The position numbers and the translations under genes are program-made. From the NCBI GenBank assembly GCA_017456685.1, contig JAFTIV010000198.1, forward strand, positions 1 to 21,003: a DNA stretch of 21,003 bases. The letters run 5' to 3'. The stretch's first letter is position 1, and each line of letters begins with the position of its first letter. The notes under the pieces are model-generated. The model saw nothing but the letters and a program-made list of their open reading frames with translations, was not told where the DNA came from and did no database searches. The DNA comes from Clostridia bacterium (GTDB taxonomy: Bacteria > Bacillota > Clostridia > Oscillospirales > CAG-272). Of this stretch, positions 751-20,956 are shown piece after piece.

Positions 751-787
751 AAAATAAAAATATATAAACTGAAAGGAAAAAAAGAAA

Positions 788-1537: not shown

Positions 1538-1575
1538 TTTTCTCTTAAGGCTATAAGGCAAAAAGGAGATTTATT

Positions 1576-3033: not shown

Positions 3034-3052
3034 AACATTAAGATATTATGTG

Positions 3053-3076: not shown

Positions 3077-3093
3077 CTAAGGAAGGAAAAGAA

Positions 3094-4293: not shown

Positions 4294-4304
4294 GGAGTTC
4301 GCTT

Positions 4305-4622: not shown

Positions 4623-4655
4623 TAAAAAATTTTTAATAAGGAGATTAAAACAATG

Positions 4656-4928: not shown

Positions 4929-4945
4929 TTTAAGGAACTTATAAT

Positions 4946-5218: not shown

Positions 5219-5291
5219 AAACACTTTTAAAGCTTAGGCTTTGAAATACAAACAGGCAAAATAATAATAAATTTTTACAGGAGGAATTCAA

Positions 5292-5564: not shown

Positions 5565-5600
5565 TTGCTATAAGGCGATAATAGAAGGCAGAAATTTTCA

Positions 5601-5672
5601 GTGCCCAAAGAGCGCTTATGCTCTTTGGGTACTGCAAAAGCGCTTAATATGGCATTGAGCTTTTTTGCAGTA
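5601..5672 (+). other. Two consecutive intercistronic hairpins between shell gene and pduL
   Basis: The first hairpin pairs CCCAAAGAGC (5604-5613) with GCTCTTTGGG (5620-5629), extendable to 13 pairs (5601-5632, one G-U). The second pairs TACTGCAAAAGC (5630-5641) with GCTTTTTTGCAGTA (5659-5672), with a two-T bulge. They share the bases 5630-5632, so their full-length forms compete. Neither is followed by a free T-run. The arrangement would suit transcript processing, 3' protection of the shell mRNA, or partial attenuation; these roles are inference. Confidence 0.6.
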
Positions 5673-5709
5673 CGAATTGACTTATTTATCATATGAAAGG
5701 GAAGAAAAA

Positions 5710-6369
5710 ATGGATATTTCAACAGAAAAAATAGCCGAAATGGTAAAGCGCGCAATTCTTGAAATGAATGGCGAGGCAGGAAAAGAGAGCACGGACAAGG
5801 GCGGAATTCCCATTGGTGTTTCAAACAGACATATACACCTGTCACAGGCAGACCTTGAGACCCTTTTCGGCAAGGGCTATGAGCTGACACCGATAAAGGA
5901 GCTTTCTCAGCCAGGACAGTATGCCTGCAAGGAGCTACTAACAATCATAGGTCCATCAATGAGACCGATAGAAAATGTAAGAGTTCTCGGTCCTGTGAGA
6001 AAAAGCTCTCAGGTTGAGATATCAGCAACGGACTCTTATGTTTTAAAGGTTAAGCCACCTGTAAGAGAGTCGGGAAATATAAAGGACTCCGCACCCATAA
6101 GAATTGTTGGTCCAAGGGGCGTTGTAGAGCTTAGCGAGGGCTGTATAATCGCAAACAGACATATTCATATGTCACCCGCGGATGCGCTTGAATTTGGAGT
6201 TAGCGACGGCGACTATGTAGATATTGATGTAAACGGCAAGCGCAGAACAAGATGGTTTGATGTTCAAATAAGAGTTCATAAGGATTTCCGCTTAGAGATG
6301 CATGTTGATACTGACGATGCAAACGCGGCAGGCATAGGAAACGGATTTATTGTAAATATCGTAAGGTGA
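5710..6369 (+). CDS. pduL: PduL phosphotransacylase with N-terminal encapsulation peptide
   Basis: I start it at the ATG at 5710, behind AAAGGGAAG, giving 219 residues; a TTG 45 bases upstream lies inside the hairpin region. The enzyme moves the acyl group of propionyl-CoA to phosphate, freeing CoA inside the shell. Residues 1-20 (MDISTEKIAEMVKRAILEMN) form an encapsulation-type helix, and a linker to about 32 follows. The two PduL repeats each carry a zinc-binding signature: R40-H41-I-H43 and R150-H151-I-H153; H198 in the EMHVDTD stretch is the third expected ligand. The stop is TGA, one of two TGA stops in this operon, which matters for reading the TGA in the glycyl radical gene. Confidence 0.95.
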   Translation: MDISTEKIAEMVKRAILEMNGEAGKESTDKGGIPIGVSNRHIHLSQADLETLFGKGYELTPIKELSQPGQYACKELLTIIGPSMRPIENVRVLGPVRKSSQVEISATDSYVLKVKPPVRESGNIKDSAPIRIVGPRGVVELSEGCIIANRHIHMSPADALEFGVSDGDYVDIDVNGKRRTRWFDVQIRVHKDFRLEMHVDTDDANAAGIGNGFIVNIVR

Positions 6370-6379
6370 GGTAATAAAA

Positions 6380-6628
6380 ATGTTAAAGGGAATTATTAGA
6401 GGAAACATAGTTTCCACAAGAAAGCAGGAATCATTAGTAGGCAGTAAGTTTATGGAGGTTCAGCTTATCAAAAATGGCAAGCTCGCAGATGAGTTTATAA
6501 TCGCGATTGACTCAGTTGGCGCGGGCATTGGTGAAACCGTTCTTATCACCACAGGAAGCTCAGCAAGGCTTGCACTTCACAACACAAGCAGTCCTGCTGA
6601 TGCAGTTATAGTAGGTATTGTTGACTAA
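6380..6628 (+). CDS. pduN: EutN/CcmL/PduN pentameric vertex protein (BMC-P)
   Basis: An 82-residue protein of the EutN/CcmL family, which forms pentamers that cap the shell vertices. Hallmarks are the opening GIIRGNIVSTRK strand, a central GKLADEFIIAIDSVGAGIGE segment, and VLITTGSSARLAL followed by DAVIVGIVD. It starts 10 bases after pduL. It is the only BMC-P gene in the window. Length is normal for the family. Confidence 0.95.
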   Translation: MLKGIIRGNIVSTRKQESLVGSKFMEVQLIKNGKLADEFIIAIDSVGAGIGETVLITTGSSARLALHNTSSPADAVIVGIVD

Positions 6629-6648
6629 TTTTTGAAAAGAGAGAAAAG

Positions 6649-7968
6649 ATGAAGACCCTGAAGACCTTAATGCAAAATTTCGGCATCGTAGGTGCCGGAG
6701 GAGCAGGGTTCCCCTCTTATGCTAAGCTTGCGGAGGGGGCGAACCTCCTCCTTATTAACGGCTCGGAATGTGAGCCACTTCTATACACAGACTACATAAT
6801 TTTGAAAAATGAGCTTAGCTTAGTTATATCTGGAATTTCGACAGTGCTTTCCCACACGGGCATAGCTAAGGCACAAATAGCCATCAAGGAGCACACAGCC
6901 AAAAGGCTTGGGCTTGAGGACAACGACAGGCTTGCAGAAAATATTTTTGTAAAAGCCTTGCCCGATGTTTATCCTATAGGCGACGAGATAAGCCTCATAT
7001 ACGAGGCAACGGGACGACTTGTAAAGCCAGGAAAGCTACCTATTACCGAGGGAGTTATAGTATATAATGTCGAAACAATGTACAATCTTGGAAGGGCGGT
7101 TAGATTTAACGAGCCCGTGACCAAAAAATGGCTGACGGTTGGCGGTGCGGTTGAAAGCCCCGTCGTAATAAAAGTGCCGATAGGCGCAAGAGTGGCTGAC
7201 ATATTTAAGGAGCTTGATATAAGGCTTGAGGACGGCTACACGGTGCTCGATGGCGGACCCTCTATGGGTAAGGTGATAAATCCATCAACCTATTCGGTAA
7301 CTAAGACCACAAAGGGAATACTAATTCTCCCTGATGACTCACAGGCAATTCTTTCAAAGAAAATGAACACAAAAATGGCGATAGCAAGGGCGGAAACCGC
7401 CTGCTGTCAATGCACAAGATGCACCGATATGTGTCCAAGAAATATGCTCGGCTACCCCTTAGAGCCCCATAAAATGGTAAGAACCGCAATGGGCGCGGTG
7501 GAGGCTATGCCGATGAGCGTGCTAAGTGCAACCCTTTGCTGTGGCTGTGGAATTTGTGAGAGTCTTGCGTGCAGTCAAGGCATATCGCCAAGGGCGGTTA
7601 TTGAAAATTACAAGGGACTGCTCGCCAAGGAAAGGCTTCGCTTTAATTTAGACGGTGAGTACAGCGTAAGACCCGAAAGAGAATACCGAATGGTTCCATA
7701 CGAAAAATGGATGAGCATGCTCGGTGTTACAAAATTTGACAAAATAGCAGAATTTGGCGGAGAAATAAATTCCTTTTCGAGAGTGGAAATCCCACTTTCC
7801 CAACACATAGGCGCACCAAGCGCTGTAGCGATAGCTGACGGAGCGATGGTTGGCGAGGGCGAGCTGATTGCAATGCCCGCCGACGGACTTTCCTTGCCAC
7901 AGCACGCATCAATATCGGGCAGAGCTACGCTTGGAATTAACAAAATAATTATTGATAAGGTAAGATAG
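6649..7968 (+). CDS. pduS: PduS-like iron-sulfur flavoprotein (RnfC/Nqo1-related)
   Basis: A 439-residue protein with an N-terminal Gly-rich nucleotide/flavin motif (GIVGAGGAGFPSYAKL, about residues 12-27) and INGSECEPLLYTD, both typical of RnfC/PduS. An SLBB-like segment lies near 160-200. Two 4Fe-4S motifs follow: C252, C255, C258, C262-P and C297 or C298, C300, C303, C308. In B12-dependent Pdu systems PduS is the cobalamin reductase. This locus uses a glycyl radical enzyme and no B12 gene is seen, so here it more likely moves electrons across the shell, for NADH reoxidation or to feed the activase; that role is inference. The gene is directly before its usual partner, PduT. Confidence 0.92.
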   Translation: MKTLKTLMQNFGIVGAGGAGFPSYAKLAEGANLLLINGSECEPLLYTDYIILKNELSLVISGISTVLSHTGIAKAQIAIKEHTAKRLGLEDNDRLAENIFVKALPDVYPIGDEISLIYEATGRLVKPGKLPITEGVIVYNVETMYNLGRAVRFNEPVTKKWLTVGGAVESPVVIKVPIGARVADIFKELDIRLEDGYTVLDGGPSMGKVINPSTYSVTKTTKGILILPDDSQAILSKKMNTKMAIARAETACCQCTRCTDMCPRNMLGYPLEPHKMVRTAMGAVEAMPMSVLSATLCCGCGICESLACSQGISPRAVIENYKGLLAKERLRFNLDGEYSVRPEREYRMVPYEKWMSMLGVTKFDKIAEFGGEINSFSRVEIPLSQHIGAPSAVAIADGAMVGEGELIAMPADGLSLPQHASISGRATLGINKIIIDKVR

Positions 7969-7972
7969 AAAA

Positions 7973-8518
7973 ATGTATAAGGCTATAGGCGTTATTGAAT
8001 TAAAAAGCATACCTAAGGGCGTTGAGGCGGCTGATGATGCGTTAAAGAGCGCAGGCATTGATATGGTGTCAGCGCACCCGTCCTGCCCTGGAAAGTACGA
8101 AATTATTCTTGCGGGTGCAATTGCTGATGTCAGCGTTGCGGTTGAGCATGTACTTAGCAAGTTTGATGGGTATGTTATAGATTCCTCAGTTATGGGAAGA
8201 ATTGACGAGCAGGTTATAAAAGCCCTCTTTGGCACACAGGAGGGTGAGCGCAAGGGCTCCTTGGGGCTTATTGAAACCTTCTCTGCGGCAAGCGCAATCA
8301 AGGCGGCAGATATCGCGGTTAAGACCGCAAGAGTGCAAATATACGACCTAAGAGTTTCACGAGGAATGGGCGGAAAGGGCGTAGTAATGATTACGGGTGA
8401 TGTAGGAGATGTCACCGCATCAATCGAGGCTGGCGCTAATTACGCAAAGAGCGTATCAACCCTTTCGTCGTTCACAGTAATTCCAGCTCCCCACGAGGAG
8501 CTTTGGAAGCGAATGTAA
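7973..8518 (+). CDS. pduT: PduT-like tandem-domain shell protein (BMC-T) with iron-sulfur cysteine
   Basis: A 181-residue protein with two BMC domains (about 1-92 and 93-181, the second starting GSLGLIETFSAAS), expected to form a trimer that mimics a hexamer. C38 in AHPSCPGKYE sits at the same number and motif as the cysteine that holds a central 4Fe-4S cluster in the pore of Salmonella PduT. It starts 4 bases after pduS. PduS and PduT are thought to form an electron conduit through the shell. Confidence 0.94.
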   Translation: MYKAIGVIELKSIPKGVEAADDALKSAGIDMVSAHPSCPGKYEIILAGAIADVSVAVEHVLSKFDGYVIDSSVMGRIDEQVIKALFGTQEGERKGSLGLIETFSAASAIKAADIAVKTARVQIYDLRVSRGMGGKGVVMITGDVGDVTASIEAGANYAKSVSTLSSFTVIPAPHEELWKRM

Positions 8519-8530
8519 GGAGATGTGGTT

Positions 8531-8563
8531 ATGGAAGGTATAAAATTCATAATCGAAAAATGA
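8531..8563 (+). other. Original start of the glycyl radical enzyme, closed by in-frame TGA after 10 codons
   Basis: AAGGAG (8517-8522, overlapping the pduT stop) lies 8 bases before an ATG at 8531. It opens MEGIKFIIEK and hits TGA at 8561-8563. The frame is exactly that of the glycyl radical enzyme. The codons after the TGA read SRIQGLIDNLYEKMPEIE, which fits the conserved N-terminus of diol-dehydratase-type glycyl radical enzymes. So the 10-codon ORF is most likely the true 5' end of that gene, broken by a point change or a sequencing error. Confidence 0.7.
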
Positions 8564-8602
8564 TCAAGAATACAAGGGCTCATAGATAATCTTTATGAAA
8601 AA

Positions 8603-11062
8603 ATGCCCGAGATTGAGTCGGCAAGAGGCAAGCTTGTAACCGAGAGCTACAAGCAGACAGAGGCGCTTCCTATAATTAGGCGCAGAAGCTCTGCCTTTGC
8701 TCATATTCTTAGAAATATACCGATTGTTATAAGAGATGGCGAGCTTGTTGTTGGAAGCGCTACAATAGCTCCTCGCGGATGTCAGGTTTTCCCCGAATAC
8801 TCATATGAGTGGCTACTTGGCGAGCTTGATACGGTTTCAACAAGACCCGCAGACCCATTTTATATAAGCGAAAAAACAAAGAGCGAGCTTCGCGAGATTT
8901 TCCCTTGGTGGAAGGGCAAGACCACAAGCGACCTTGCAAGGGCTAATATGGCGCCCGAGGCATACGAGGCGTTCACCGAGCATTCAATATTCACCCCAGG
9001 AAACTATTTCTACAACGGAATAGGACATGTGTGTGTGGATTACGGCAAGGTTATGAAAATCGGCTACAGAGGCATTATTGCCGAGGCAGAGGGCGCACTC
9101 TCGCGCCTTGAGGTGTCGGATGGCGATTATGCTTCAAGAAGCAATTTCCTTTACGCGGTAATAGAGAGCTGTGAGGCTGTAATAGAGTACGCACGCAGAT
9201 ATAGCGCGCTTGCACGCGATATGGCATCAAGGGAGACAAATCCCCAAAGAAAGCGCGAGCTTGAGATAATCTCACGCAACTGTGCAAGAGTTCCCGAATT
9301 TGGCGCAACAAGCTTCTATGAGGCTTGCCAGACCTTTTGGTTTATTCAGCTTCTTTTGCAGGTTGAGTCAAGCGGTCACTCTATCTCCCCCGGAAGATTT
9401 GACCAGTATATGTACCCATACTTCAAAAAGGACATCGACGAGGGAAAAATCACCTATGAGCAGGCGCAGGAGCTTCTTGACTGCCTGTGGGTAAAGCTCA
9501 ACGATATAAACAAGGTAAGAGATGCTGCATCAGCTGACGGCTTTGCGGGCTACGGAATGTTCCAAAACCTCATCGTCGGCGGACAGGACATTCACGGAAT
9601 GGATGCAACAAACGACCTTTCATATATGTGCCTTGAGGCATCTATGCATGTGCCTCTTCCTCAGCCATCTATCTCGATAAGAGTTTGGAATGGCTCACCC
9701 GAGCCCCTGCTTCTTAAGGCGGCAGCGCTTACAAGGCTTGGAACAGGCCTTCCTGCTTACTATAACGACGAGATTATTATTCCATCTATTATGGCAAGGG
9801 GACTTACCCTTGAGGACGCAAGAGATTATTGCATAATCGGCTGTGTTGAGCCTCAAAAGGCAGGAAAGACAGACGGCTGGCACGATGCGGCATTCTTCAA
9901 TATGTGCCGTCCTATGGAGCTTGCATTCTCAAACGGCTATGATAAGGGCAAGAAAATCGGTCCAGACACGGGCGATGTGGCTGATATGAGAAGCTTTGAG
10001 GAGTTTTACGAGGCATACAAGGCTCAGCAAAGCTATATGATAAAGCTTCTTGTAAACGCGAATAATGCAATAGATATGGCGCACGCGGTAAGGTGTCCGC
10101 TTCCGTTCCAGTCCTGTATGGTAGAGGATTGCATCGGCAGAGGAAAATCCCTGCAGGAGGGCGGAGCGATATATAACTTCACAGGTCCACAGGGCTTCGG
10201 TATTGCGAACAACACAGACGGACTTGTGGCTATAAAGAAGCTCGTATTCGAGGAAAAGAGATTTACTCTTGTAGAGCTTCGAGAGGCGCTAAAGGCTAAC
10301 TTTGGCTACGGAGTTAAGGGCGCATCTGCAGAGAAGCTCACTATCGAAATCGCAACCGAGCTTGCAAGACAGGGCTTAAATGTGACCGAGGACGCTATAC
10401 ATACAATTTACGACGAGGTAACAAATCAAACCTCTCTTAGCGAGGCACAAAGGACGAGATACAAGGAAATCAAGCGCCTTATTGAGGAGGAGGCTCCTAA
10501 GTACGGAAACGACATTTACGAGGTCGATATGTTCGCACGCGATGTTGCGAATTCCTACACAAGAGAGGTTGAAAAATACAAGAACGCGCGTGGCGGTATT
10601 TTCCAAGCAGGGCTTTATCCTGTGTCGGCAAATGTTCCTCTTGGCGCAAGCACAAGTGCAACCCCAGACGGACGACTTGCATATACACCGCTTGCAGATG
10701 GCATAGGTCCTGCATCGGGTAGAGATGTTAAGGGTCCAACCGCGACGGCAAACTCCGTTGCAAGGCTTGAGCAGGGTGTTGCCTCGAACGGAACCCTTCT
10801 TAACCAGAAGTTCCACCCCTCAGCCCTTGCGGGAATGGGCGGGCTTTCAAAGTTCGTTGCGCTCATTCGCTCGTATTTCGACCAAAAGGGAATGCATGTG
10901 CAGTTTAATGTTGTAACTAAGGAAACTCTAATAGACGCACAAAACAACCCCGAAAAATACAAGACCTTAGTAGTTAGAGTTGCGGGCTATAGCGCGCTAT
11001 TTACAACACTCTCTCGCTCACTACAGGACGATATTATCAACAGAACAGAGCAGGGCTGGTAA
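8603..11062 (+). CDS. Glycyl radical diol dehydratase (B12-independent 1,2-propanediol dehydratase); N-terminus interrupted
   Basis: The first ATG after the TGA, at 8603, gives 819 residues; counting from 8531 through the TGA gives 843 codons, nearer the usual family length. The enzyme removes water from 1,2-propanediol (or glycerol) by radical chemistry, giving propionaldehyde. The active-site thiyl cysteine is C414 in IIGCVEPQ, with the adjacent catalytic Glu; the glycyl radical loop is RVAGYSA with G795 (numbered from 8603). HSISPGRFDQYMYP, NFTGPQGFGIAN and the GLYPVSANVPLGA stretch are family-typical. No binding site precedes 8603, so translation from there is expected to be weak unless by reinitiation. 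No obvious encapsulation helix is seen. Diol rather than choline substrate is inferred from the PduP/aldolase context. Confidence 0.9.
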   Translation: MPEIESARGKLVTESYKQTEALPIIRRRSSAFAHILRNIPIVIRDGELVVGSATIAPRGCQVFPEYSYEWLLGELDTVSTRPADPFYISEKTKSELREIFPWWKGKTTSDLARANMAPEAYEAFTEHSIFTPGNYFYNGIGHVCVDYGKVMKIGYRGIIAEAEGALSRLEVSDGDYASRSNFLYAVIESCEAVIEYARRYSALARDMASRETNPQRKRELEIISRNCARVPEFGATSFYEACQTFWFIQLLLQVESSGHSISPGRFDQYMYPYFKKDIDEGKITYEQAQELLDCLWVKLNDINKVRDAASADGFAGYGMFQNLIVGGQDIHGMDATNDLSYMCLEASMHVPLPQPSISIRVWNGSPEPLLLKAAALTRLGTGLPAYYNDEIIIPSIMARGLTLEDARDYCIIGCVEPQKAGKTDGWHDAAFFNMCRPMELAFSNGYDKGKKIGPDTGDVADMRSFEEFYEAYKAQQSYMIKLLVNANNAIDMAHAVRCPLPFQSCMVEDCIGRGKSLQEGGAIYNFTGPQGFGIANNTDGLVAIKKLVFEEKRFTLVELREALKANFGYGVKGASAEKLTIEIATELARQGLNVTEDAIHTIYDEVTNQTSLSEAQRTRYKEIKRLIEEEAPKYGNDIYEVDMFARDVANSYTREVEKYKNARGGIFQAGLYPVSANVPLGASTSATPDGRLAYTPLADGIGPASGRDVKGPTATANSVARLEQGVASNGTLLNQKFHPSALAGMGGLSKFVALIRSYFDQKGMHVQFNVVTKETLIDAQNNPEKYKTLVVRVAGYSALFTTLSRSLQDDIINRTEQGW

Positions 11063-11201
11063 AAGGGGCTCTGCCAAACGCAAGATTGATTTTGACGGAA
11101 AATAACCTTGAAATACTGCGTTCTCGCAAGACGAATCGGTGCTAAAAACAGCGATGATGTGTCGCAAAAGCATAAATTTTTAACGAAAAGAGGTGATTAC
11201 A
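11063..11201 (+). other. Gene-free spacer between glycyl radical enzyme and activase
   Basis: This 139-base gap is long for this tight operon and is placed between two genes that act as a pair. It holds short inverted segments (AACGCA at about 11079 and TGCGTT at about 11117), a repeated CGCAAGA, and a weak GCGA/TCGC stem near 11152-11166. I found no convincing promoter or U-tract terminator. It ends in AGAGGTGAT, the activase ribosome binding site. Confidence 0.4.
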
Positions 11202-11984
11202 GTGCCACAGGACATAAAGGGCAGAATATTTAATATTCAACGCTTTTCAATTCACGACGGACCCGGAATAAGAACTATAGTTTTCTTTAAGGGGTGCTTT
11301 ATGAGATGCGCGTGGTGCTGTAATCCCGAATCCCAGAGCAGAGAAATTGAAACAATTATCGAAAGGGGCAAGCCGAAAACGGTTGGTCGCGATGTTAGCG
11401 TCGCTGACATTATGCCCGAAATCTTAGCCGATTTACCGTATTACCGCAGAAGCGGAGGGGGCGTAACGCTCTCTGGCGGAGAGGTGCTTTGTCAGGCTGA
11501 TTTTGCAAGAGAATTGCTTATTGCCTGCAAGCAGGCGGGGCTTCATACGGCAATTGAGTCAGCTTCCTCTGCTAAATTTGAGGAAATTGAAAAGCTACTT
11601 CCTTATCTTGACCTTTATCTTATGGACATAAAGCATATAGATAGCGCCAAGCACAAGGAATACACGGGCGTCTCAAACGAGAGAATTCTTGAAAACGCAA
11701 GAAAAATAGCCCAAAGCGGTGTTGAGCTTATAATAAGAACACCAGTAATCCCAGGCTTTAACGACACACCCGAGGAGATAAAAGCAATATCTCACTTTGC
11801 CAAGAGCCTAACAGGGGTAAGAGAGCATCATTTGCTACCCTACCACAGATTAGGTATGGACAAGTACGAGGGGCTTGGAAGAAATTATTCCCTAAAGGAG
11901 ATAGAGCCACCGAGCAAGGAGAGAATGGAGTATCTTTTATCAGTTGCCGAGACATCGGGGCTTATATGTAAAATAGGAGGCTAA
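11202..11984 (+). CDS. Glycyl radical enzyme activase (radical SAM), short form without ferredoxin insert
   Basis: I start at GTG 11202 because AGAGGTGAT ends four bases before it; a GTG at 11193 lies inside that binding site. The 260-residue product opens GRIFNIQRFSIHDGPGIRT, the classic activase N-terminus. The SAM-cluster motif is C32-x3-C36-x2-C39, and SGGGVTLSGGE contributes to SAM binding. Activases of many glycyl radical dehydratases carry an eight-iron ferredoxin domain after the CxxxCxxC motif. Here only about 45 residues separate it from GGGVTLSGGE, as in pyruvate formate-lyase activase, so that domain is absent. It installs the radical on the glycyl enzyme upstream. Its stop overlaps the binding site of the PduU-like gene. 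Confidence 0.93.
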   Translation: MPQDIKGRIFNIQRFSIHDGPGIRTIVFFKGCFMRCAWCCNPESQSREIETIIERGKPKTVGRDVSVADIMPEILADLPYYRRSGGGVTLSGGEVLCQADFARELLIACKQAGLHTAIESASSAKFEEIEKLLPYLDLYLMDIKHIDSAKHKEYTGVSNERILENARKIAQSGVELIIRTPVIPGFNDTPEEIKAISHFAKSLTGVREHHLLPYHRLGMDKYEGLGRNYSLKEIEPPSKERMEYLLSVAETSGLICKIGG

Positions 11985-11985
11985 A

Positions 11986-12345
11986 ATGGAGCTTAAGGAA
12001 AATATGAGAATAGTGCAGGAGCTTGTGCCTGGTAAGCAGATAACTCTTTGCCATATAATTGCAAATCCCGACGATGTGCTTTATACCAAGCTCGGTCTTG
12101 ACCCAAAGACCGACTACACAAGAAGCGCAATAGGCGTTTTGACGGTTTCCCCTGCGGAGAGTGCGGTAATTACTGCCGATATCGCAATAAAGGCATCGGG
12201 CGCGGACATAGGATTTGTTGATAGATTTACAGGAACTCTTATCATCACAGGAAGCGTATCAAGCGTGGAGTCGGCATTCTCTGCAATAAGAGAATACTTT
12301 ACAACCAAGCTCTCGTATGTTTGCTGTGATATAACCAGAACATAA
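11986..12345 (+). CDS. pduU: PduU/EutS-like circularly permuted BMC-H shell protein
   Basis: A 119-residue protein with the PduU hallmarks: N-terminal RIVQELVPGKQITLCHIIAN, then AIGVLTVSPAESAVITADIA, GFVDRFTGTLIITG and the final CDITRT. In PduU the permuted N-terminus forms a small beta-barrel over the pore. Binding site AGGAGG lies inside the end of the activase gene. Its TAA shares one base with the ATG of the GTPase gene (TAATG), so the two are probably translationally coupled. In Pdu systems PduU is paired with PduV, and the same order holds here. Confidence 0.95.
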   Translation: MELKENMRIVQELVPGKQITLCHIIANPDDVLYTKLGLDPKTDYTRSAIGVLTVSPAESAVITADIAIKASGADIGFVDRFTGTLIITGSVSSVESAFSAIREYFTTKLSYVCCDITRT

Positions 12346-12788
12346 TGAAAAAAATTATTCTTATAGGCAGAGTTGCGGCAGGCAAGACCACCCTAACTCA
12401 GGCGCTTAATGGTGAGAATATTCACTACTATAAAACGCAGTATATAAACTATCTCGACACGATAATAGATACCCCTGGCGAATATACGGAGCTGAGGCAA
12501 ACGAGTGGAGCGCTCGCGCTTTATGCGTACGAGGCAGATGTTGTCGGGCTTGTGCTTTCGGCAAACGAGCCATATTCGATTTTCTCCCCGTGTATTACAA
12601 GCCTTGTAAACAGAGAGGTTGTAGGAATTATAACAGGCATAGACAAGCCTGATGCTAATCCCGAAAGAGTTGAAAGATGGCTAAGGCTTGCGGGCTGTAA
12701 GAAAATATTCCCTGTCAGCGCCTACACGGGCGAGGGCGTAGATAAGCTTTTAGAATTTCTTGCCGACGAGGAGGACAAGATAGAATGA
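12345..12788 (+). CDS. eutP: PduV/EutP-like small GTPase
   Basis: A 147-residue P-loop GTPase. G1 is GRVAAGKT (8-15), G3 is DTPGEY (42-47), the G4 position reads TGIDK (97-101) instead of the usual (N/T)KxD, and G5 is SAYTGEG (125-131). The protein starts almost directly at the P-loop, so there is no targeting extension. EutP/PduV proteins are linked to microcompartment function; PduV was reported to associate with the outside of the Pdu compartment and with filament-like movement. The lysine lost from G4 could weaken guanine contact. It ends in ATGA shared with the ParA gene. Confidence 0.92.
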   Translation: MKKIILIGRVAAGKTTLTQALNGENIHYYKTQYINYLDTIIDTPGEYTELRQTSGALALYAYEADVVGLVLSANEPYSIFSPCITSLVNREVVGIITGIDKPDANPERVERWLRLAGCKKIFPVSAYTGEGVDKLLEFLADEEDKIE

Positions 12789-13576
12789 GCAGAACTCAAG
12801 TAATCGCATTTGCGAATAATAAGGGCGGAAGCGGAAAAACCACAAGCTGCTCTAATATAGGCTGTGCGCTCGCTATGATGGGCAAAAGGGTGCTTCTCAT
12901 AGACGGAGATATGCAGTTAAATTTGACCCTTTCCTTCTTTGACGAGGAAAAGGCGCTTGAATATGCGAGCAACGGAAAAAACATATATATGGCGATAAAG
13001 GAAGAAAAGGACCTTTCGGGCTTTGTTGTGCCAACCGATTACGAGGGGCTCGATATTATACCCTCAACCTCGCTTATGAGCGCTATCGAATTCGACCTTT
13101 TCCCAAAATGGCAAAGAGAATTCATACTAAGAAAGTGTCTTGAGCCCATAAGGGCGCGTGGCTATTACGATTACATATTGATAGACTCTCCGCCAACGCT
13201 TGGTGGCTGGGTGATGAATATTATGTGCTCCGCGGACTTTGTAGTAATCCCCGTTGAGGCAAGCCCTTGGGGACTCTTTGGACTTGCTAATATGTTTGAT
13301 TTCATAAATAAGGTAAAGGAAATTTCCCCTCGCCTTAGCATTATGGGAATTATGATAACAAAGGCTGACGAGAGAAAGAACTACTTTAAGGAAACCCTAA
13401 AGACTCTAAAGGAATCAGCAGAGGTAAGGGTTTTCGATAACTACATAAAGGTTGACAGCGCAATTGAATGGTCGCAGGACAACAGCAAGCCCGTTGTCGC
13501 CTACAAGAAATACTCAAGAAGCGCTATTGAATATCAATATTTAGCAAAGGAGATAGTAGAATATGCCAATAGGTAA
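12785..13576 (+). CDS. ParA/Soj/McdA-type P-loop ATPase
   Basis: A 263-residue ParA-family ATPase. The deviant Walker A motif KGGSGKTT (13-20) keeps the signature lysine K13; the A' motif is VLLIDGDMQLNLT (about 36-48); Walker B is YILIDSPP with D132; VIPVEASPWGLFGL follows as in ParA/Soj. There is no N-terminal helix-turn-helix extension, as in small chromosomal ParA and McdA proteins. ParA ATPases form ATP-dependent dimers on the nucleoid and move or space cargo with a partner that stimulates their ATPase. It overlaps the GTPase by four bases and the next gene by fourteen. Placement at the end of the operon argues that its cargo is the microcompartment rather than a plasmid or chromosome. 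Confidence 0.9.
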   Translation: MSRTQVIAFANNKGGSGKTTSCSNIGCALAMMGKRVLLIDGDMQLNLTLSFFDEEKALEYASNGKNIYMAIKEEKDLSGFVVPTDYEGLDIIPSTSLMSAIEFDLFPKWQREFILRKCLEPIRARGYYDYILIDSPPTLGGWVMNIMCSADFVVIPVEASPWGLFGLANMFDFINKVKEISPRLSIMGIMITKADERKNYFKETLKTLKESAEVRVFDNYIKVDSAIEWSQDNSKPVVAYKKYSRSAIEYQYLAKEIVEYANR

Positions 13577-13967
13577 GAACGCGATAAAAAGAATTACAAA
13601 TAATGGCTACTCAAGCGTAAAATCGTCAGCTCCCGATATGGAAAATAGCGAGATGGCCGAGAAAAAGGCAGAGGTAGCTGAGAAAAAAGCGCCTACCGCG
13701 AAAAAATCCACCGCGAAAGCTACAGCCTCGGCAGGAGCGCCAAGGGCGAGCACTCCAAAGGCAAGCACTCCAAAGGCAAGCGCGCCAAAAAAGCCATCGG
13801 CTAAAAAGGCGCCATCTGCACCCAAAAAGAGTATGGAGAGCGAGCCAGAGCTCTCACCCGTTAAGACCGCAAAAAAGGTTGTAAAAAAAGCGCCAGAGAA
13901 AGCAAAAGCGCAGGACAACGGCTGTATTAACATCGGCAGAGGCGAGCTACCCGTTCATCTTCTTTAA
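13563..13967 (+). CDS. Basic low-complexity protein, candidate ParA partner (McdB-like by context)
   Basis: I do not recognise a family. The 134-residue protein starts behind AAGGAG inside the ParA gene. Residues 1-27 (GKNAIKRITNNGYSS and SAPDMEN within) are ordinary in composition and basic. Residues about 28-118 are nearly all Lys, Ala, Pro, Ser, Thr and Glu, with EKKAEVAEKKA repeats and tandem ASTPK units, and should be disordered. The last 15 residues (CINIGRGELPVHLL) look again like a defined motif. Small disordered partners with a basic N-terminus downstream of ParA are typical of ATPase-stimulating adaptors, and McdB of carboxysomes is such a protein. A nucleic-acid-binding, histone-H1-like role is the main alternative. 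The function is inferred from position. Confidence 0.75.
   Translation: MPIGKNAIKRITNNGYSSVKSSAPDMENSEMAEKKAEVAEKKAPTAKKSTAKATASAGAPRASTPKASTPKASAPKKPSAKKAPSAPKKSMESEPELSPVKTAKKVVKKAPEKAKAQDNGCINIGRGELPVHLL
13739..13785 (+). repeat. 15-base tandem repeat inside the basic protein gene
   Basis: About three imperfect 15-base units of the form GCAAGCACTCCAAAG encode repeated ASTPK/ASAPK pentapeptides. Such repeats can change number by slippage in steps of five residues without breaking the frame. Confidence 0.65.
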
Positions 13968-13985: not shown

Positions 13986-14011
13986 AAAAGGACAGAGAAA
14001 TCTGTCCTTTT
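13986..14011 (+). terminator. Rho-independent terminator of the microcompartment operon
   Basis: A perfect 11-pair stem, AAAAGGACAGA (13986-13996) against TCTGTCCTTTT (14001-14011), with a GAAA tetraloop. The A and T ends would also allow it to work in reverse. It lies 18 bases after the stop of the last operon gene and just before the hydrolase promoter. Confidence 0.85.
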
Positions 14012-14014: not shown

Positions 14015-14043
14015 TTGAAAACAAGAGATATGTGTGCTATAAT
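14015..14043 (+). promoter_or_regulatory. Sigma-A promoter of the SGNH hydrolase gene
   Basis: TTGAAA (14015-14020), a 17-base spacer, and TATAAT (14038-14043) with an extended TG at 14035-14036. It starts 4 bases after the terminator, so the hydrolase is a separate unit. Confidence 0.85.
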
Positions 14044-14075: not shown

Positions 14076-14696
14076 ATGAGAATTTTATTTCAAGGCGATT
14101 CAATAACAGATGCGGGCAGAGATTGGAACAACGATGCACAGCTCGGTAGAGGCTATGCTCATCTTGTTTCGGCAGAGCTTGGCTTTAAGGAGCCAGCACA
14201 GCACACCTTTGTAAACAAGGGCATTAGTGGTAACAGAGTTGTTGACCTCTATGCGCGCATAAAGAGAGATATAATCAACTATAAGCCCGATGTGATGAGT
14301 ATTCTTATCGGTGTAAACGATGTATGGCACGAGCTTGGAGACAGCCCAAACGGCGTAGATGCCGACAAGTTCTTCAAGATTTATTCAATGCTTATAGAGG
14401 AAATCAAAGAAGCCCTACCCGAGGTTAAAATTATGATTTTAGAGCCATTTGTCTTAGAGGCAGGTGCAACCGAGGCTAACTGGGAATTCTTTAAGACCGA
14501 AACCGCAAAGCGCGCCGAAATGTCAAGAAAAATAGCAGAAAAGTACGCACTTCCCTTCATACCACTCCAAAAGGGCTTTGACAACCTTGCAAAGAAAGCA
14601 CCAAACGATTATTGGCTTGCAGACGGAGTTCATCCAACACCATCAGGGCATGAGTATATTAAAGAGGAGTGGCTTAAGGCGTATTTAGCGCTTTAA
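14076..14696 (+). CDS. SGNH/GDSL-family hydrolase (esterase)
   Basis: A 206-residue cytoplasmic protein without a signal peptide. The catalytic blocks are block I GDSITD with S9, block II KGISGNR with G52, block III IGVND with N81, and block V DGVHP with D183 and H186. These are the four SGNH residues plus the Asp of the triad. Family members remove acyl or acetyl groups from sugars, lipids or polysaccharides; a carbohydrate esterase would suit a plant-polymer degrader but the substrate cannot be read. Binding site AAGGGG precedes the ATG. The final codons (14679-14694) are repeated just after the stop. Confidence 0.9.
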   Translation: MRILFQGDSITDAGRDWNNDAQLGRGYAHLVSAELGFKEPAQHTFVNKGISGNRVVDLYARIKRDIINYKPDVMSILIGVNDVWHELGDSPNGVDADKFFKIYSMLIEEIKEALPEVKIMILEPFVLEAGATEANWEFFKTETAKRAEMSRKIAEKYALPFIPLQKGFDNLAKKAPNDYWLADGVHPTPSGHEYIKEEWLKAYLAL

Positions 14697-15134: not shown

Positions 15135-16730
15135 ATGAAAAAGAGATTGACAATAGTTCTTTTGGCTCTTGCTCTTTTTGTGTGTGCCTTTGCGCTTTCT
15201 GTTAGCGCTAAGAGCGTATATCTTGAAGAGATTCCTGACGAGCTAAAGGCGCCAAGCGACACAGCTACACATTTTGTAGTGCTTGAGGATGAGGTGTACT
15301 TTGTAGGCTCGGGTGGCACAGTCAATGGGCTTAACACCGACAAGATTACCGCCGATTTGCAGACTGCAGGCATTGATACCTCAAAGATAGGCACAGAGTA
15401 TCTTACAAAGCTTATTATTCCATCAACCTTTGGCGGAAGCACAGTAACGGCTGTTGGCTTTAATGGTGCTTTTAAGGAAAACACTTATTTCTGGAACAAG
15501 GTTGGCTATATTAGGATGCCGGGCACGGTAGCCTCTGTTACCGATATGAACCAGGCAACACAAAAGCTAAGATATTTTGACTTTGGCGAAAACAGTCAGG
15601 TAACTGCTATTCCTTATTGCTTTATGAATTCATCTAAGCAGATGATGCTTATTGAGAACTTCCCAAGAAACCTAAACTCAATAGGAGAACAGGCATTTAA
15701 TCTCTGCTATGGTGCTTTTAGAGGAGAGCTTTATTTGAATGCGACCACAATAGGCGTTTCCGCATTTAACAACTCGCTTTCCTTTGTAACAAAGCTTATC
15801 TTGGGACCTAACACACAAAATATAGGAAGACAATCGCTCTGCGTGCGCTCCTCGGAAATTCCCGATTCATACGAGCCTGCTGACGGCAAGGTGTCAATTA
15901 CTGAGATTGTTTTTGAGTGCGATGTTTCAAAGGTTACCTTCGCTACTCAGGGCAACGATACGGGCTCATTCTATTTTACAGGAAACACTCGTTCACCCTA
16001 TGAGAAGCTTGAGACAATCGTGCTTGCTCACCCAGACAACGAAAGGGCATATGTTGACGGAGCAGTCTTTAACGACTTTACAGCTGATGGTGTGACAGTT
16101 TTGTTCAACGACAGCGATGGACTTGATGACTATGTAACAGTATATCACAGCTTTGACACAATTAAGGGCGTTTCGTACGAGAGCTTCCTTAGCGAGGGAA
16201 CAAAATCAATCGAATGCTCAAAATGTGGCGCGATAACAACGGAAAAGACCGCCCCTGTGTTCGAATTCCTTGGCTATTCATATAAGATAGATGCTATAAA
16301 CGGTGGCGGACTTGCGTGTGGCTACAAGGTTGACAAGGAAGCGCTTGAGGAGTTTAAGAGCTATAACGAGGGTACAATCAGCTTCGGTCTTATAATGTTC
16401 AATCCAAATAGCGATTCCGCAAAAAACGCAACTGCGATTTTTGCAAACGGCAAGCTCACAATTAACGAAAAAGCATTGCAGGTTGAAATTACAGATGTTA
16501 AGTATTCGACCATCAATGTGTTGATAAACGGCTTTGATGAGCAGAGTGCTGACTTGGAGCTCGTAATCGCGTTCTATTTAAATATAGCGGTTGGCGAGGG
16601 CGACAGCGTAGTTCACACAACAACCATTGAGCAGGGAACAACCACGAAAGATGGCACGAGTGTTGTCAAGGGCTACTATGAAAAAGACGTTAAGCTCGCA
16701 ACAATTACCTACAACACTGTAGCTCAATAA
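15135..16730 (+). CDS. Secreted BspA-like leucine-rich-repeat protein
   Basis: A 531-residue protein. Residues 1-25 form a signal peptide: KKR, a hydrophobic core, then SVSA before the predicted cut. Residues about 70-290 contain degenerate LRR_5/BspA-type repeats, seen as alternating strands with phrases such as SIGEQAFNLC, TIGVSAFNNS and NIGRQSL. A CSKCG motif near 356-360 leads into a C-terminal beta-rich region (FLGYSYKI onward) that I cannot assign. No LPXTG, SLH or transmembrane anchor is visible, so it may be free or loosely bound. BspA-like proteins are common in gut and oral anaerobes and are often tied to adhesion; the ligand here is unknown. Confidence 0.8.
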   Translation: MKKRLTIVLLALALFVCAFALSVSAKSVYLEEIPDELKAPSDTATHFVVLEDEVYFVGSGGTVNGLNTDKITADLQTAGIDTSKIGTEYLTKLIIPSTFGGSTVTAVGFNGAFKENTYFWNKVGYIRMPGTVASVTDMNQATQKLRYFDFGENSQVTAIPYCFMNSSKQMMLIENFPRNLNSIGEQAFNLCYGAFRGELYLNATTIGVSAFNNSLSFVTKLILGPNTQNIGRQSLCVRSSEIPDSYEPADGKVSITEIVFECDVSKVTFATQGNDTGSFYFTGNTRSPYEKLETIVLAHPDNERAYVDGAVFNDFTADGVTVLFNDSDGLDDYVTVYHSFDTIKGVSYESFLSEGTKSIECSKCGAITTEKTAPVFEFLGYSYKIDAINGGGLACGYKVDKEALEEFKSYNEGTISFGLIMFNPNSDSAKNATAIFANGKLTINEKALQVEITDVKYSTINVLINGFDEQSADLELVIAFYLNIAVGEGDSVVHTTTIEQGTTTKDGTSVVKGYYEKDVKLATITYNTVAQ

Positions 16731-17616: not shown

Positions 17617-19020
17617 TTAGTTTCCAAGGTCCTCGACGATGAGCTCGCGAACGGCTGGCTCAGCGGGTGGTGGGTTATCTCTAATTGCGAGGAACTTAGG
17701 AGCAACCTGTGGGAACATTGCGCAGGAGAGAACATCCTCGTCGCTCTTTACAATGTTAGCAAACTCTTGACGATACTTGTCAAGCTCAGGTGCGATAAGG
17801 TCGGCAGGACGGCAGGTGATTACCTCGTCGTCACCGATTGCCTTCCTTCTTACCTCCTCGTTTACCTTGCCTGGGAGCATACCATACTCGCCACGGAGAA
17901 GTCCCTTAGACTCCTTAGATACCATTTTGTATCTTTCGCCCATAAGAACATTAAGAACCGCCTGAGTACCAACGATTTGGCTTGTAGGAGTTACAAGTGG
18001 TGGGTAGCCGAAGTCCTCACGAACTCTTGGCACCTCTGCAAGCACCTCGTAGAGCTTGTCCTCTGCCTTAGCCTGCTTAAGCTGTGAAATAAGGTTAGAG
18101 AGCATTCCGCCGGGTACTTGATAAAGAAGAGTATTTGGGTCAACATTTAGAACCTTAGGGTCAAGCGAGCCTGCCTCCTTAAGCTTCGCAGCAACGCCAC
18201 GGAAGTGAGCAGCGATACCGCTTAGGTGATTAAGGTCGATGCCTGTGTCGTACTTTGTGCCCTGAAGGGTTGCAACCATAGCCTCGGTAGATGGCTGAGA
18301 TGTACCATTAGCAAGAGGAGAAAGGGCTGTGTCGATAATGTCAACGCCCGCCTCGATTGCCTTAAGATAGGTCATATCGCCAGTACCTGTGGTGTTATGG
18401 GTGTGAAGGTGGATAGGAACCTTAACCTTAGCCTTGAGCGCCTTAACGAGTGACTGAGCATCGTAAGGGAGAAGAAGGTTAGCCATATCCTTGATCCAGA
18501 TTGTATCAGCGCCCATTTCCTCGAGCTTGCACGCGAGGTCAACGAAGTATTCCTCGTTATGAACAGGGCTTATGGTGTAGGAAAGAGCTGCCTCAACATG
18601 ACCGCCAAATTTCTTTGTAGCCCTGATAGCAGTTTCCATATTTCTTACATCGTTAAGCGCATCGAAGATACGGATTACATCAATACCGTTCTTGATAGCC
18701 TTTTCGATAAATGCCTCGACAACATCGTCAGCATAGTGCTTGTAGCCGAGAAGGTTTTGTCCACGAAGGAGCATTTGAAGCTTGGTATTAGGCATAGCCT
18801 TCTTAAGAGCGCGAAGTCTTTCCCAAGGGTCCTCGTTGAGGAAGCGCATACAGGAATCGAAGGTCGCACCGCCCCAGCACTCAAGTGACCAGTAGCCAGC
18901 CTTGTCAAGTGCCTCGCAGGCAGGAAGCATATCCTCAAGCCTCATTCTCGTAGCCGCCTGTGATTGATGGGCGTCACGGAGAATTGTATCGGTTATAAAA
19001 ACTTTATTTTTTGTAGCCAT
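17617..19020 (-). CDS. oadA: Oxaloacetate decarboxylase alpha subunit (carboxyltransferase)
   Basis: A 467-residue biotin-dependent carboxyltransferase of the OadA/PycB family. Hallmarks are TDTILRDAHQSQAATRM (10-26), LECWGGATFD (46-55), the carbamylation-lysine motif IKDM with K177, and the metal-binding HLHTH (204-208). The conserved C-terminal PycA/PycB domain is present, but there is no biotinyl domain, which is on a separate gene at 20609-20956. It moves CO2 from oxaloacetate to biotin in the cytosol, and the beta subunit then uses decarboxylation to pump sodium out. GAGGG precedes the ATG. It is the last gene of the minus-strand operon, separated from oadB by 166 bases. A stand-alone pyruvate carboxylase role is less likely given oadB. 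Confidence 0.92.
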   Translation of the reverse strand: MATKNKVFITDTILRDAHQSQAATRMRLEDMLPACEALDKAGYWSLECWGGATFDSCMRFLNEDPWERLRALKKAMPNTKLQMLLRGQNLLGYKHYADDVVEAFIEKAIKNGIDVIRIFDALNDVRNMETAIRATKKFGGHVEAALSYTISPVHNEEYFVDLACKLEEMGADTIWIKDMANLLLPYDAQSLVKALKAKVKVPIHLHTHNTTGTGDMTYLKAIEAGVDIIDTALSPLANGTSQPSTEAMVATLQGTKYDTGIDLNHLSGIAAHFRGVAAKLKEAGSLDPKVLNVDPNTLLYQVPGGMLSNLISQLKQAKAEDKLYEVLAEVPRVREDFGYPPLVTPTSQIVGTQAVLNVLMGERYKMVSKESKGLLRGEYGMLPGKVNEEVRRKAIGDDEVITCRPADLIAPELDKYRQEFANIVKSDEDVLSCAMFPQVAPKFLAIRDNPPPAEPAVRELIVEDLGN

Positions 19021-19186: not shown

Positions 19187-20593
19187 TTAAGCCACGGTTT
19201 GGAGCAATGCGATGAGCACGCCTGCGGCAATACCTGAGCCGATAACTCCCGCAACATTTGGTCCCATTGCGTGCATAAGAAGGAAGTTTCCTGGGTCGTC
19301 CTCTTGTCCAACCTTTTGTGAAACTCTTGCAGCCATAGGAACTGCACTAACTCCAGCAGAGCCGATAAGTGGGTTGATTTTCTTTCCCTCGGGAAGGAAT
19401 ACATTCATAAGCTTTGCAATAAGCACGCCACTTGCAGTAGCAACACCGAATGCAACAACGCCCATTAGAATTATGATAAGTGTCTTTGGCGAGAGGAAGG
19501 TTGCCGCGGTTGCGGTTGCACCAACGCTGACACCAAGGAATACTGTTACGATATTCATAAGCTCGTTTTGAACGGTCTTAGATAGACGGTCGCAAACACC
19601 GCACTCCTTAAGAAGGTTACCAAACATAAGGCATCCTACGAGCATTGCAGCCGAAGGAACGATGAGGGCAACCACGATTGTTACCATAATTGGGAATATA
19701 ATCTTTTGCTTTCTTGAAACGGGGCGAAGCGCAGTCATTCTAATCATACGCTCCTTCTTAGTTGTAAGAAGCTTCATAATAGGTGGCTGAATTACGGGAA
19801 CGAGCGCCATATATGAGTACGCCGCAACCGCGATAGGACCGAGAAGACCTGGGGCGAGCTTTGATGTTGTATAAATTGCGGTAGGTCCGTCTGCACCACC
19901 GATAATACCGATTGATGCCGCCTCCTTGAGGGAGAAGGTGATTGCATCCCAGCCAGCAGCCTGACCGATAGCACTAATTCCCATAACGCCTGCAACGGTT
20001 GCAAAAATACCAACCTGAGCAGCAGCGCCGAGAATAAGGCTCTTTGGATTTGCAATTAGTGGACCGAAGTCAGTCATTGCGCCAACACCGATGAAGATAA
20101 GGCAAGGATAGATGCCGAGCTTAACTCCAAGGTAGAGAACATCGATAAGACCAACAGCTATTGATGTGCCCTCAAGACGAATAAGTGAGTTGAGAACAGG
20201 GAACTCTCCAACAACGCCTGTTGAGATTGCCTCCTTAAGAGCACCGAGGTCGGTGAAATAAAGAGCATTTTCGGCAGTTGAGCCAGGAGCCATAATATTG
20301 AGCTCTCTTGCGATTTGGAGAATTTTGTCAGCGCTAATCTTTGCACCGCCAAACAAATCCCATTGAATGTGTCCCGCTGCAAAGAGCTCCTCGTGGTAAG
20401 CCTCTGCGAAGGGAAGGTTAGTAAGAAGCATACCTATTGCGATAGGAAGAAGGAGTAGTGGCTCAAACTTCTTGCCAATAGCAAGGTAGCAAAGCACGCA
20501 GGCAATGGCTATCATAACGATGTTTTTCCAACCACCGTCACCGAAGAAGCCATAGACACCCGTCTGCTTCAAAAATTCGAGAATTCTTTCCAT
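19187..20593 (-). CDS. oadB: Sodium-pumping decarboxylase beta subunit
   Basis: A 468-residue multi-spanning membrane protein of the OadB/GcdB/MmdB family. The ion-channel motif GGADGPTAIY carries D235, matching the essential Asp of this family; IFIGVGAMTDFGPL, the PIMVTIVVALIVPSA helix and GVSAVPMAARVSQK near the end are also typical. The stretch of about residues 64-130 (containing WDLFGGAKISADK and LNIMAPGS) is longer than in the classic enzyme, shifting the key Asp by roughly 30 positions. It decarboxylates carboxybiotin and exports sodium ions. It follows the biotin carrier gene by 15 bases. Confidence 0.95.
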   Translation of the reverse strand: MERILEFLKQTGVYGFFGDGGWKNIVMIAIACVLCYLAIGKKFEPLLLLPIAIGMLLTNLPFAEAYHEELFAAGHIQWDLFGGAKISADKILQIARELNIMAPGSTAENALYFTDLGALKEAISTGVVGEFPVLNSLIRLEGTSIAVGLIDVLYLGVKLGIYPCLIFIGVGAMTDFGPLIANPKSLILGAAAQVGIFATVAGVMGISAIGQAAGWDAITFSLKEAASIGIIGGADGPTAIYTTSKLAPGLLGPIAVAAYSYMALVPVIQPPIMKLLTTKKERMIRMTALRPVSRKQKIIFPIMVTIVVALIVPSAAMLVGCLMFGNLLKECGVCDRLSKTVQNELMNIVTVFLGVSVGATATAATFLSPKTLIIILMGVVAFGVATASGVLIAKLMNVFLPEGKKINPLIGSAGVSAVPMAARVSQKVGQEDDPGNFLLMHAMGPNVAGVIGSGIAAGVLIALLQTVA

Positions 20594-20608: not shown

Positions 20609-20956
20609 TTATGCAAGAGAGCAAAGAGCTGTTCCTGTTTCTACAGAAGCACCAGCGGAAACGCTAACGCCTGCAACAGTTCCATCACATGGAGCCATAA
20701 TTTCGTTTTCCATCTTCATAGCCTCGAGAACGAAGAGAACATCGCCCTTCTTAACTGCTTGGCCGTTTGATACATTAACCTTAAGAATTGTACCAGGCAT
20801 AGGAGCGCTGATTGCTTGTCCGCCTGAAGGAGCGCTTGCAGGAGCTACAGCTACAGGAGCTGGAGCAGGTGCGCTTGCCTTGATATCTGCCTTATCTACT
20901 ACTTCGATTGTGATTTCGTAAACATTGCCGTTTACTGTTACCTTGTAAGCTTTCAT
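20609..20956 (-). CDS. Biotin carboxyl carrier subunit of the sodium-pump decarboxylase
   Basis: A 115-residue protein with a short N-terminal segment (1-25), a Pro/Ala linker (about 27-46) and a biotinyl-lipoyl domain (48-115). The biotin attachment site is K81 in EAMKMENEI. It carries CO2 between the alpha and beta subunits. AGAGGT precedes the ATG. The small gamma (OadG-like) subunit, if present, should lie beyond the right edge of the window. Similar carriers serve glutaconyl-CoA and methylmalonyl-CoA decarboxylases; the OadA-type alpha subunit here favours oxaloacetate. Confidence 0.93.
   Translation of the reverse strand: MKAYKVTVNGNVYEITIEVVDKADIKASAPAPAPVAVAPASAPSGGQAISAPMPGTILKVNVSNGQAVKKGDVLFVLEAMKMENEIMAPCDGTVAGVSVSAGASVETGTALCSLA

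Follow-up and report, generated by a model that had tools for sequence, protein, structure and literature searches.

A ParA-type ATPase and a putative ParB-derived partner at the end of a GRM5 microcompartment operon in Clostridia

What do a ParA-type ATPase and a small protein encoded in overlap with it do at the end of a bacterial microcompartment (BMC) operon? The question is raised by a 21,003-nucleotide contig of a Clostridia bacterium (JAFTIV010000198.1, our C186; hereafter the window), which belongs to a partial assembly of 1.43 Mb and 63.7% completeness. The window encodes a glycyl-radical enzyme (GRE), its activase, a fuculose-phosphate aldolase, a lactaldehyde reductase, PduS and PduT. 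Since this gene set matches the description of GRM5 loci, in which aldolase, lactaldehyde reductase, PduS and PduT accompany the glycyl-radical enzyme (PMC6325248), we assigned the locus to the GRM5 type (fuculose/rhamnulose phosphate, 1,2-propanediol, glycyl radical), in line with an earlier sequence-only reading that had proposed a propanediol-type glycyl-radical compartment. We consider it probable that the ParA and the small protein, here called Sml, are a positioning pair dedicated to this GRM5 microcompartment, similar to McdA/McdB (McdAB) in its working and with an adaptor derived from ParB. The operon ends with the genes pduU-pduV-parA-sml:

11986-12345, plus strand: PduU/EutS-type shell protein, candidate outer-surface docking partner (PDB sequence matches to EutS/PduU, E 3.1e-32 to 7.4e-26)
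12345-12788, plus strand: PduV/EutP-like GTPase (Pfam PduV-EutP, 171.4 bits)
12785-13576, plus strand: ParA-type ATPase, 263 aa, with deviant Walker A motif KGGSGKTT (Pfam AAA_31, motifs, tree)
13563-13967, plus strand: Sml, adaptor-like partner, 134 aa (homologue family, structure model, ends shared with ParB_N partners)
13563-13576, plus strand: overlap of parA and sml, 14 nt

The ATPase matched Pfam AAA_31 with 175.7 bits (cut-off 27) and contains the deviant Walker A motif at residue 13, the A' motif LLIDGDMQ at residue 37 and the Walker B motif YILIDSPP at residue 130. The signature lysine in Walker A and the ParA-type domain place it in the ParA branch of the ParA/MinD family. Both the intact KGGSGKTT and the 14-base overlap with sml were found as the sequence-only reading had described them. 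The overlap measured 14 nt in 39 of 42 loci, the window included, and 26 nt in three; two of 44 loci were left out of this scoring, as they did not have the IGKN letters used for start finding. The pduV and parA genes overlap by ATGA.

Sml is made up of an N-terminal helix (MPIGKNAIKRIT), a linker of K, A, P, S and T residues, and the C-terminal sequence GELPVHLL. It had no match in Pfam, NCBIfam or the PDB sequences, and we therefore rejected the idea that it represents an already known family. A search of the protein collection gave 536 homologues at E<=0.1, which excludes a chance open reading frame (ORF). We aligned 159 unique sequences out of 162 (42 from the window and the other loci, and the best 120 of the 536 proteins). 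Residues I3, G4, K5, N6, R10, G15, S17, P24, D25, M26, S29, P-5 and L-2 were invariant in all 159. Because the loci were fetched by the N-terminal words MPIGKNAI and APDMENS and the proteins were the best 120 of 536, the N-terminal invariance is overstated; the C-terminus was not a selection criterion in the loci. All but two of the sequences ended in [LM]-P-x-[Y/H/W]-L-L (one ends in M, and one has R at -6), with Y in 102, H in 50 and W in 7 at position -3. Among their last five residues, 109 of 159 thus include Y, F or W, and all 159 do so if histidine, found in the window, is counted. Two BMC loci outside this set, L043 and L047, start with MSIGKSSIKR and MPIGKSSIKR.

Between the two nearly frozen ends, the middle of the protein is variable and rich in Lys, Ala, Glu, Pro and Thr, and the total length ranges from 72 to 161 aa. 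AlphaFold2 predicted a helix at residues 5-12 (pLDDT, the program's confidence score, 79 for the first block) and little else; confidence was low in the middle, and the mean pLDDT was 59.3. The Uversky charge-hydropathy index placed only 27 of 42 sequences on the disordered side, and so this index alone is no proof of disorder. A division of labour, with the N-terminus acting on the ATPase and the C-terminus on the cargo, would agree with the conservation, the predicted helix and a similar tail on some PduV proteins (see below).

The genome collection that we scanned, described as one genome per species and covering 84,980 species, yielded 43 Sml loci, from metagenome-assembled genomes of Clostridia, Clostridiales or Oscillospiraceae, many of them from deer, sheep, goat or 'Lapin' samples. 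ParA was encoded directly upstream of Sml in all 43. Upstream lay compartment-operon genes in 42 loci and shell genes in 41; in L031 and L034 a contig end truncates the locus. The family thus has the arrangement by which McdAB systems are recognized, a ParA-type gene and a small partner gene in or near a BMC operon. L039 and L040 look like one contig present in two genomes.

Within the host's own genus, Sml was present in 13 of 29 genomes, and a BMC-type GRE (at least 89% identity) in the same 13. In a second genus, Sml and ParA occurred in the same 33 of 57 genomes, and GRE likewise in 33. The exceptions in this genus are two contig-end cases: G618, whose GRE contig stops 1.7 kb after the gene, and G652, in which the pair lies on a 4.7-kb contig. 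The association of Sml with GRE was significant in both genera (Fisher p 1.5e-8 in the first; 5e-16 in the second without G618 and G652, 1e-13 with them). The expectation that the pair co-occurs with glycyl-radical BMC loci was therefore borne out almost one-to-one in two genera, with a BMC-operon context in 42 of 43 loci. We also note that genome G633 has two BMC loci (L114 and L115), each with its own GRE, ParA and Sml, and thus offers a natural test of pair specificity. Two loci have an additional gene between pduV and parA (L024:881-1486 and L026:752-1351); its product is about 200 aa long and has a lipoprotein-like start.

The pair is not universal. In the sample of the order, Sml was found in 1 of 197 genomes, the host itself. 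A hidden Markov model of Sml run over the class gave two weak additional matches (G312, E 0.0045; G415, E 0.005, with an internal stop), which we took as noise. GRE at E<=1e-250 was present in 49 of 391 sampled genomes of the class, the host included. From 50 GRE matches outside the host genome we took 48 loci, leaving out the partial matches in G552 and G569, and none of the 48 had a ParA or Sml match. Shell genes were seen in 35 of them within the stretch examined; as the other 13 had no shell-gene match there, the firm ParA-less comparison consists of 35 loci. The gene order was rotated in most ParA-less loci with shell genes (GRE-activase-PduU-PduV-aldolase and so on). The ParA/Sml pair is therefore a lineage-specific addition and not a core part of GRM5. 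Several loci (L072, L076-L080, L097-L100 and L103) had GRE-activase pairs with a GRE 61-67% identical to the BMC enzyme and few or no shell matches in the stretch; these are candidates for BMC-free propanediol dehydratases or for differently arranged loci.

Among the 391 genomes, the only other ParAs close to that of the window (61% identity) were in G300 and G471, and the next best listed reached 38%. These two, which have a GRM5 locus elsewhere in the genome, belong to a family that we call f77. Counting the host, the ParA subfamily was found in 3 of 49 genomes with GRE vs 0 of 342 without (p 0.0019). An f77 ParA, 56-61% identical to that of the window, was present in 9 of 9 genomes, and in 7 of these it was followed by an overlapping partner gene encoding 164-207 aa (375 aa in L154). 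After the start residue, the partners begin with SIGK[SN]SI[NS]R, a form to which the starts of L043 and L047 are near, and they end with [LM]Px[YF]LL. All seven had ParB_N (PF02195) above the Pfam cut-off and no other Pfam match. A structure model of the relative P0127 (alignment of 9 sequences, mean pLDDT 71.5) matched ParB, Noc and PadC and has a predicted ParB/Srx fold. The ParB motif GERR reads GHKR in f77 partners and GNRR in L154, and the aligned ParB region after ParB_N is absent. The L154 partner combines ParB_N with a long Lys/Ala/Pro linker. A more distant member, P0131, is a 146-aa ParB_N protein that starts with MSIGKSSLAR and ends with MPAWLL, with Trp at -3.

The link between the two kinds of partner comes from their ends. 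We wrote patterns from Sml (N-terminal M.IGK..[IL].R; C-terminal P.[YWHF]LL) and ran them over 2.15 Mb of relatives' DNA that had been fetched without them. Out of 6,700 ORFs with 39,608 possible starts, 9 matched the N-terminal pattern and the same 9 matched the C-terminal one; they correspond to 7 distinct genes, all of them ParA-overlapping partners. Sml itself had no ParB_N above the Pfam gathering score and did not match a profile of 16 ParBs (best E 0.9), so we rejected an undetected ParB and found no ParB_N plus helix-turn-helix arrangement in it. Because ParB_N is present only in the f77 partners, we call Sml ParB-derived and do not class it with the ParBs; it is best read as an adaptor that lost the ParB core. 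The earlier statement that the partner has no recognizable family needs correcting: both ends are common to ParB_N proteins beside a related ParA, and the family can be traced through them. In the simplest order of events, which has moderate support, a ParB_N-bearing partner existed first outside the operon, and the ParB-less Sml arose later within it. A weak PduV match in the 20-kb stretch around the G300 ParA was taken for a large translation-factor GTPase there.

The ParA tree comprised 82 rows (44 BMC, 9 f77 and 29 other ParAs). BMC and f77 ParAs formed one clade with 100/100 support, separated from the 29 others by a branch of 2.47 changes, and as judged from this tree they share common ancestry. 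The BMC group was supported at 85/100, and the f77 sequences L118 and L149 adjoined it at 83/98. Within BMC loci, ParA distances followed GRE distances (correlation 0.84). A plasmid or phage origin of the pair was rejected, as the 1,096 plasmid and 49 phage records with matches at E<=1e-20 included no ParA of at least 60% identity. In plasmids, an f77-type partner had only weak partial matches (66 records, many of the matches to ParB-like genes, none covering 80% of the query). The host genome has further ParA genes, a Soj-ParB pair on contig C151 (L002) and a second ParA with a 104-aa downstream partner on contig C114 (L003), the latter perhaps part of a mobile element.

The C-terminal tail of Sml recurs on another protein of the same operon. 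Among all ORFs of at least 50 aa in the 43 BMC loci, 56 of 3,527 ended in [LM]..[YWHF]LL, and these were 42 Sml and 14 PduV proteins and nothing else; the remaining Sml (L042) ends in WLM. In the 48 ParA-less GRE loci, 3 of 3,542 ORFs had this ending, including one PduV (L073, ending in LQEYLL, with no extension). Of 5,407 ORFs in the f77 and other stretches, 11 had it, and 9 of these were partners. Among the 42 loci that had a PduV match, 14 encode a WLL-tailed PduV, which extends 24-49 residues beyond the matched part. As these 14 are related and all are in ParA loci, the tail may stem from one gain.

The matching tail on Sml and PduV suggests that the tail docks on the compartment. In the Pdu system, coevolution, docking and two-hybrid analysis put PduV on PduU, at the outside of the shell (PMC4315436). 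Because of this placement and the gene order pduU-pduV-parA-sml, our best guess for the tail target, by analogy, is the outer shell face, with PduU first. EutP of Salmonella has been seen evenly in the cytoplasm (PMC12487888), which speaks against a fixed shell location for the PduV/EutP family as a whole.

Taken together, a mechanism can be proposed. ParA-ATP dimers would coat the nucleoid, as expected from the family, and Sml would coat the compartment via its [LM]Px[Y/W/H/F]LL tail, probably at the outer surface, the location assigned to PduU and PduV in the Pdu system. The flexible Lys/Ala/Pro linker would present the N-terminal IGKNAIKR helix to ParA, and the helix would trigger ATP hydrolysis and ParA release. 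Compartments would then chase ParA gradients, and so be spaced and shared at division. An ancestor with the same two ends around ParB_N would have lost this domain no later than the entry of the pair into the BMC operon. If so, active spacing would be extended to the B12-independent fucose/rhamnose organelle of gut Clostridia.

A bolder version, to which we give about even chances, is that a DNA-partition ParB became an organelle adaptor in four visible steps and that [LM]xx[Y/W/H/F]LL is a portable outer-surface address of the microcompartment. The DNA-binding half of ParB would have been lost and a C-terminal LPx[YFW]LL tail gained while ParB_N was kept (f77); the Lys/Ala/Pro linker would have been gained next (L154); then ParB_N would have been lost and the ParA pair moved into the GRM5 operon (window type); finally, the docking tail would have been copied to, or convergently gained by, the neighbouring PduV GTPase. 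This would suggest how organelles acquired their own spacing system, along a plausible path from ParB to adaptor with both functional ends kept, and a tail that serves as a surface address would be a six-residue handle to place proteins on catabolic microcompartments.

The pair resembles McdAB in that a ParA-type ATPase is followed directly by the gene of a small partner, and in that this partner is predicted to have a basic N-terminal helix (at 5-12 in Sml, with K5 and R10 in 159/159), a putative counterpart of the helix that is the ATPase contact in McdB. For this contact, residues 1-20 of H. neapolitanus McdB are enough and K7 is critical, and basic N-termini are used by partners of ParA/MinD ATPases (PMC12204374). 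Y, H or W at -3 in Sml may correspond to the conserved aromatic near the end of McdB; McdB needs its C-terminal Trp, and the last five residues of McdB-like proteins of PDU/GRM loci are described as including Tyr or Phe (PMC11321042). Unlike McdB, Sml has a terminal LL preceded by His, Tyr or Trp (position -3), its cargo would be a catabolic GRM5 compartment, and both of its ends recur in ParB_N proteins, whereas McdB of S. elongatus is reported to have no identifiable similarity to known ParB proteins (PMC6328274). Among chains with solved structures, the window ParA is nearer to ParA/Soj than to McdA (112.8 bits for the best match, a ParA family protein, vs 49.4 bits for the chain named McdA). 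Because of this and because the relatives tie Sml to ParB, the pair is said to work like McdAB and is not filed as McdAB.

Compared with ParABS (Spo0J-Soj), Noc and PadC, the f77 partners have ParB_N, and P0127 the modelled ParB/Srx fold; the conserved LGKG/LGRG start motif of ParB proteins resembles the IGKN/IGKS start of Sml and f77 partners. Unlike ParABS, the f77 partners have no Pfam match beyond ParB_N, and Sml has no ParB_N. PadC is likewise ParB-like and acts as an adaptor by binding ParA at a protein scaffold. The PduV/EutP system shares the operon and, in 14 of 42 loci, the Sml-type tail; it differs in being a GTPase without ParA. PduV has been suspected in BMC positioning (PMC8262871, PMC4207490), ParA in BMC loci was pointed out in 2014 (PMC4207490), and EutK of Salmonella, another BMC protein, has been proposed to have a ParB-like role (PMC12487888). 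McdA/McdB-like pairs in non-carboxysome BMC operons (PDU, EUT, GRM) were already proposed by MacCready, Vecchiarelli and colleagues (PMC8262871, PMC11321042); our pair follows the same idea and was compared with theirs by description. In the portions of the literature that we searched, neither a ParB-derived BMC adaptor nor ParB_N relatives nor the PduV tail came up.

Several observations weigh against a dedicated, ParB-derived positioning pair. The co-occurrence counts come from genomes that are related within each genus and are not independent events, and the pair is not required for a GRM5 compartment, since the sampled GRM loci of the class do without it. The link between ParB and Sml consists of two short end motifs and gene position, and the true-ParB profile misses Sml. 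In G300 and G662, ParA is not overlapped by a partner gene; in G300, end motifs and tblastn gave no partner match in the stretches examined, which are part of the genome. Seven more PduVs of ParA loci are extended by at least 19 residues without a WLL tail, the window PduV has no extension, and the window Sml has His at -3, not Tyr, Trp or Phe. The BMC ParAs are monophyletic at 85/100 only, and the order from f77 to BMC depends on the 83/98 node and on rooting by distant ParAs over the 2.47-change branch, where the tree program warns of long branches meeting. Finally, distances are correlated for every operon gene pair tested (0.34-0.84; 0.56 for ParA and the Sml ends), therefore co-inheritance is seen and not a specific tie between ParA and Sml.

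The f77 pairs are an argument for a different cargo. None of the nine genomes has a shell gene, or any BMC gene, beside the pair (over about 20 kb in G300, G471 and G661, and about 1.5 kb each side, or less where the contig ends, in the other six), and no shell gene was seen in 40 stretches of G661 that cover 0.45 Mb of its approximately 1.7 Mb. Homologues found mainly away from BMC loci had been named beforehand as a sign against compartment positioning; in part, this applies to the related f77 pairs; the Sml type has its BMC context in 42 of 43 loci. As the f77 partner retains ParB_N, and ParA-partner pairs usually act on DNA, the pair might space something else, such as a chromosomal site or another complex, and merely travel with the BMC operon. 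We consider this unlikely, because in two genera the pair is present or absent together with the BMC-type GRE almost one-to-one and because the tail recurs on PduV of the same operon. No recognized DNA-binding part is apparent, as ParB_N is the sole Pfam match of the f77 partners and Sml has no match at all; the host already has Soj and ParB on contig C151, and the plasmid and phage matches included no ParA at or above 60% identity.

Two further explanations assign a different role to Sml and appear less probable still. PhaF/PhaM and histone H1 are analogues for a direct nucleoid tether or condenser, in which the basic linker would bind DNA, the tail would bind the compartment and ParA would be secondary. 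The linker composition (24% Lys, 15% Ala and 10% Pro over the family) and the net charge of +16 in the window would fit, but the charge ranges from 0 to +17 among 42 sequences and is not conserved, for which reason we rejected a pure DNA tether; moreover, the invariant positions are at the two ends and not in the linker, and sml overlaps parA in all 42 scored loci. We give similarly little credence to the tail as an encapsulation signal, with Sml inside the compartment as an assembly or core-organizing factor that ParA only loads or disperses. A short C-terminal motif after a disordered linker would also fit cargo-loading peptides, and the PduV tail is compatible with this role; against it stand the placement of PduV outside the shell in the Pdu system (PMC4315436) and the consideration that an interior Sml could not reach ParA. 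Positioning of the compartment by ParA and Sml thus remains our preferred explanation.

Bases 1-13967 of the window are likely one operon, from the cut acetate kinase gene through ParA and Sml. Upstream of pduU, and directly after sml, it contains:

1-750, plus strand: acetate kinase, 5' end outside the window
788-1537, plus strand: class II aldolase (fuculose-phosphate aldolase type)
1576-3033, plus strand: aldehyde dehydrogenase
3064-4293, plus strand: Zn alcohol dehydrogenase (lactaldehyde reductase in GRM5)
4305-4622, 4653-4928, 4946-5218 and 5292-5564, plus strand: four BMC-H shell genes (Pfam BMC)
5665-6369, plus strand: PduL phosphotransacylase
6380-6628, plus strand: BMC-P vertex protein (EutN/CcmL)
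6649-7968, plus strand: PduS-like flavin/FeS protein (Complex1_51K, RnfC_N)
7973-8518, plus strand: PduT-like tandem BMC shell protein (Pfam BMC, 2 stretches)
8603-11062, plus strand: glycyl-radical enzyme, 1,2-propanediol dehydratase type by locus type (PFL-like, Gly_radical; TIGR01774)
11193-11984, plus strand: glycyl-radical enzyme activase (TIGR02494)
13986-14011, strand undecided: hairpin with TTTT tail, possible operon end

The sequence-only reading had placed parA and sml inside the BMC operon and before its terminator. The shell and GRE genes upstream agree with the first part; the second is weaker, as the terminator scan scored the hairpin on the minus strand only, and a plus-strand terminator at this site is plausible but weak. 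No RNA element in the window matched Rfam at the gathering score. Downstream, a GDSL-type lipase gene (14076-14696) has a good promoter-like site directly upstream (14015-14043), and a gene for a 531-aa protein (15135-16730) has a BspA-type LRR match slightly below the cut-off. A Na+-pumping decarboxylase set lies on the minus strand (17617-19020, PYC_OADA with HMGL-like; 19187-20593, OAD_beta; 20609-20956, biotin carrier); next to a propanediol compartment, this set is plausibly linked to propionate metabolism.

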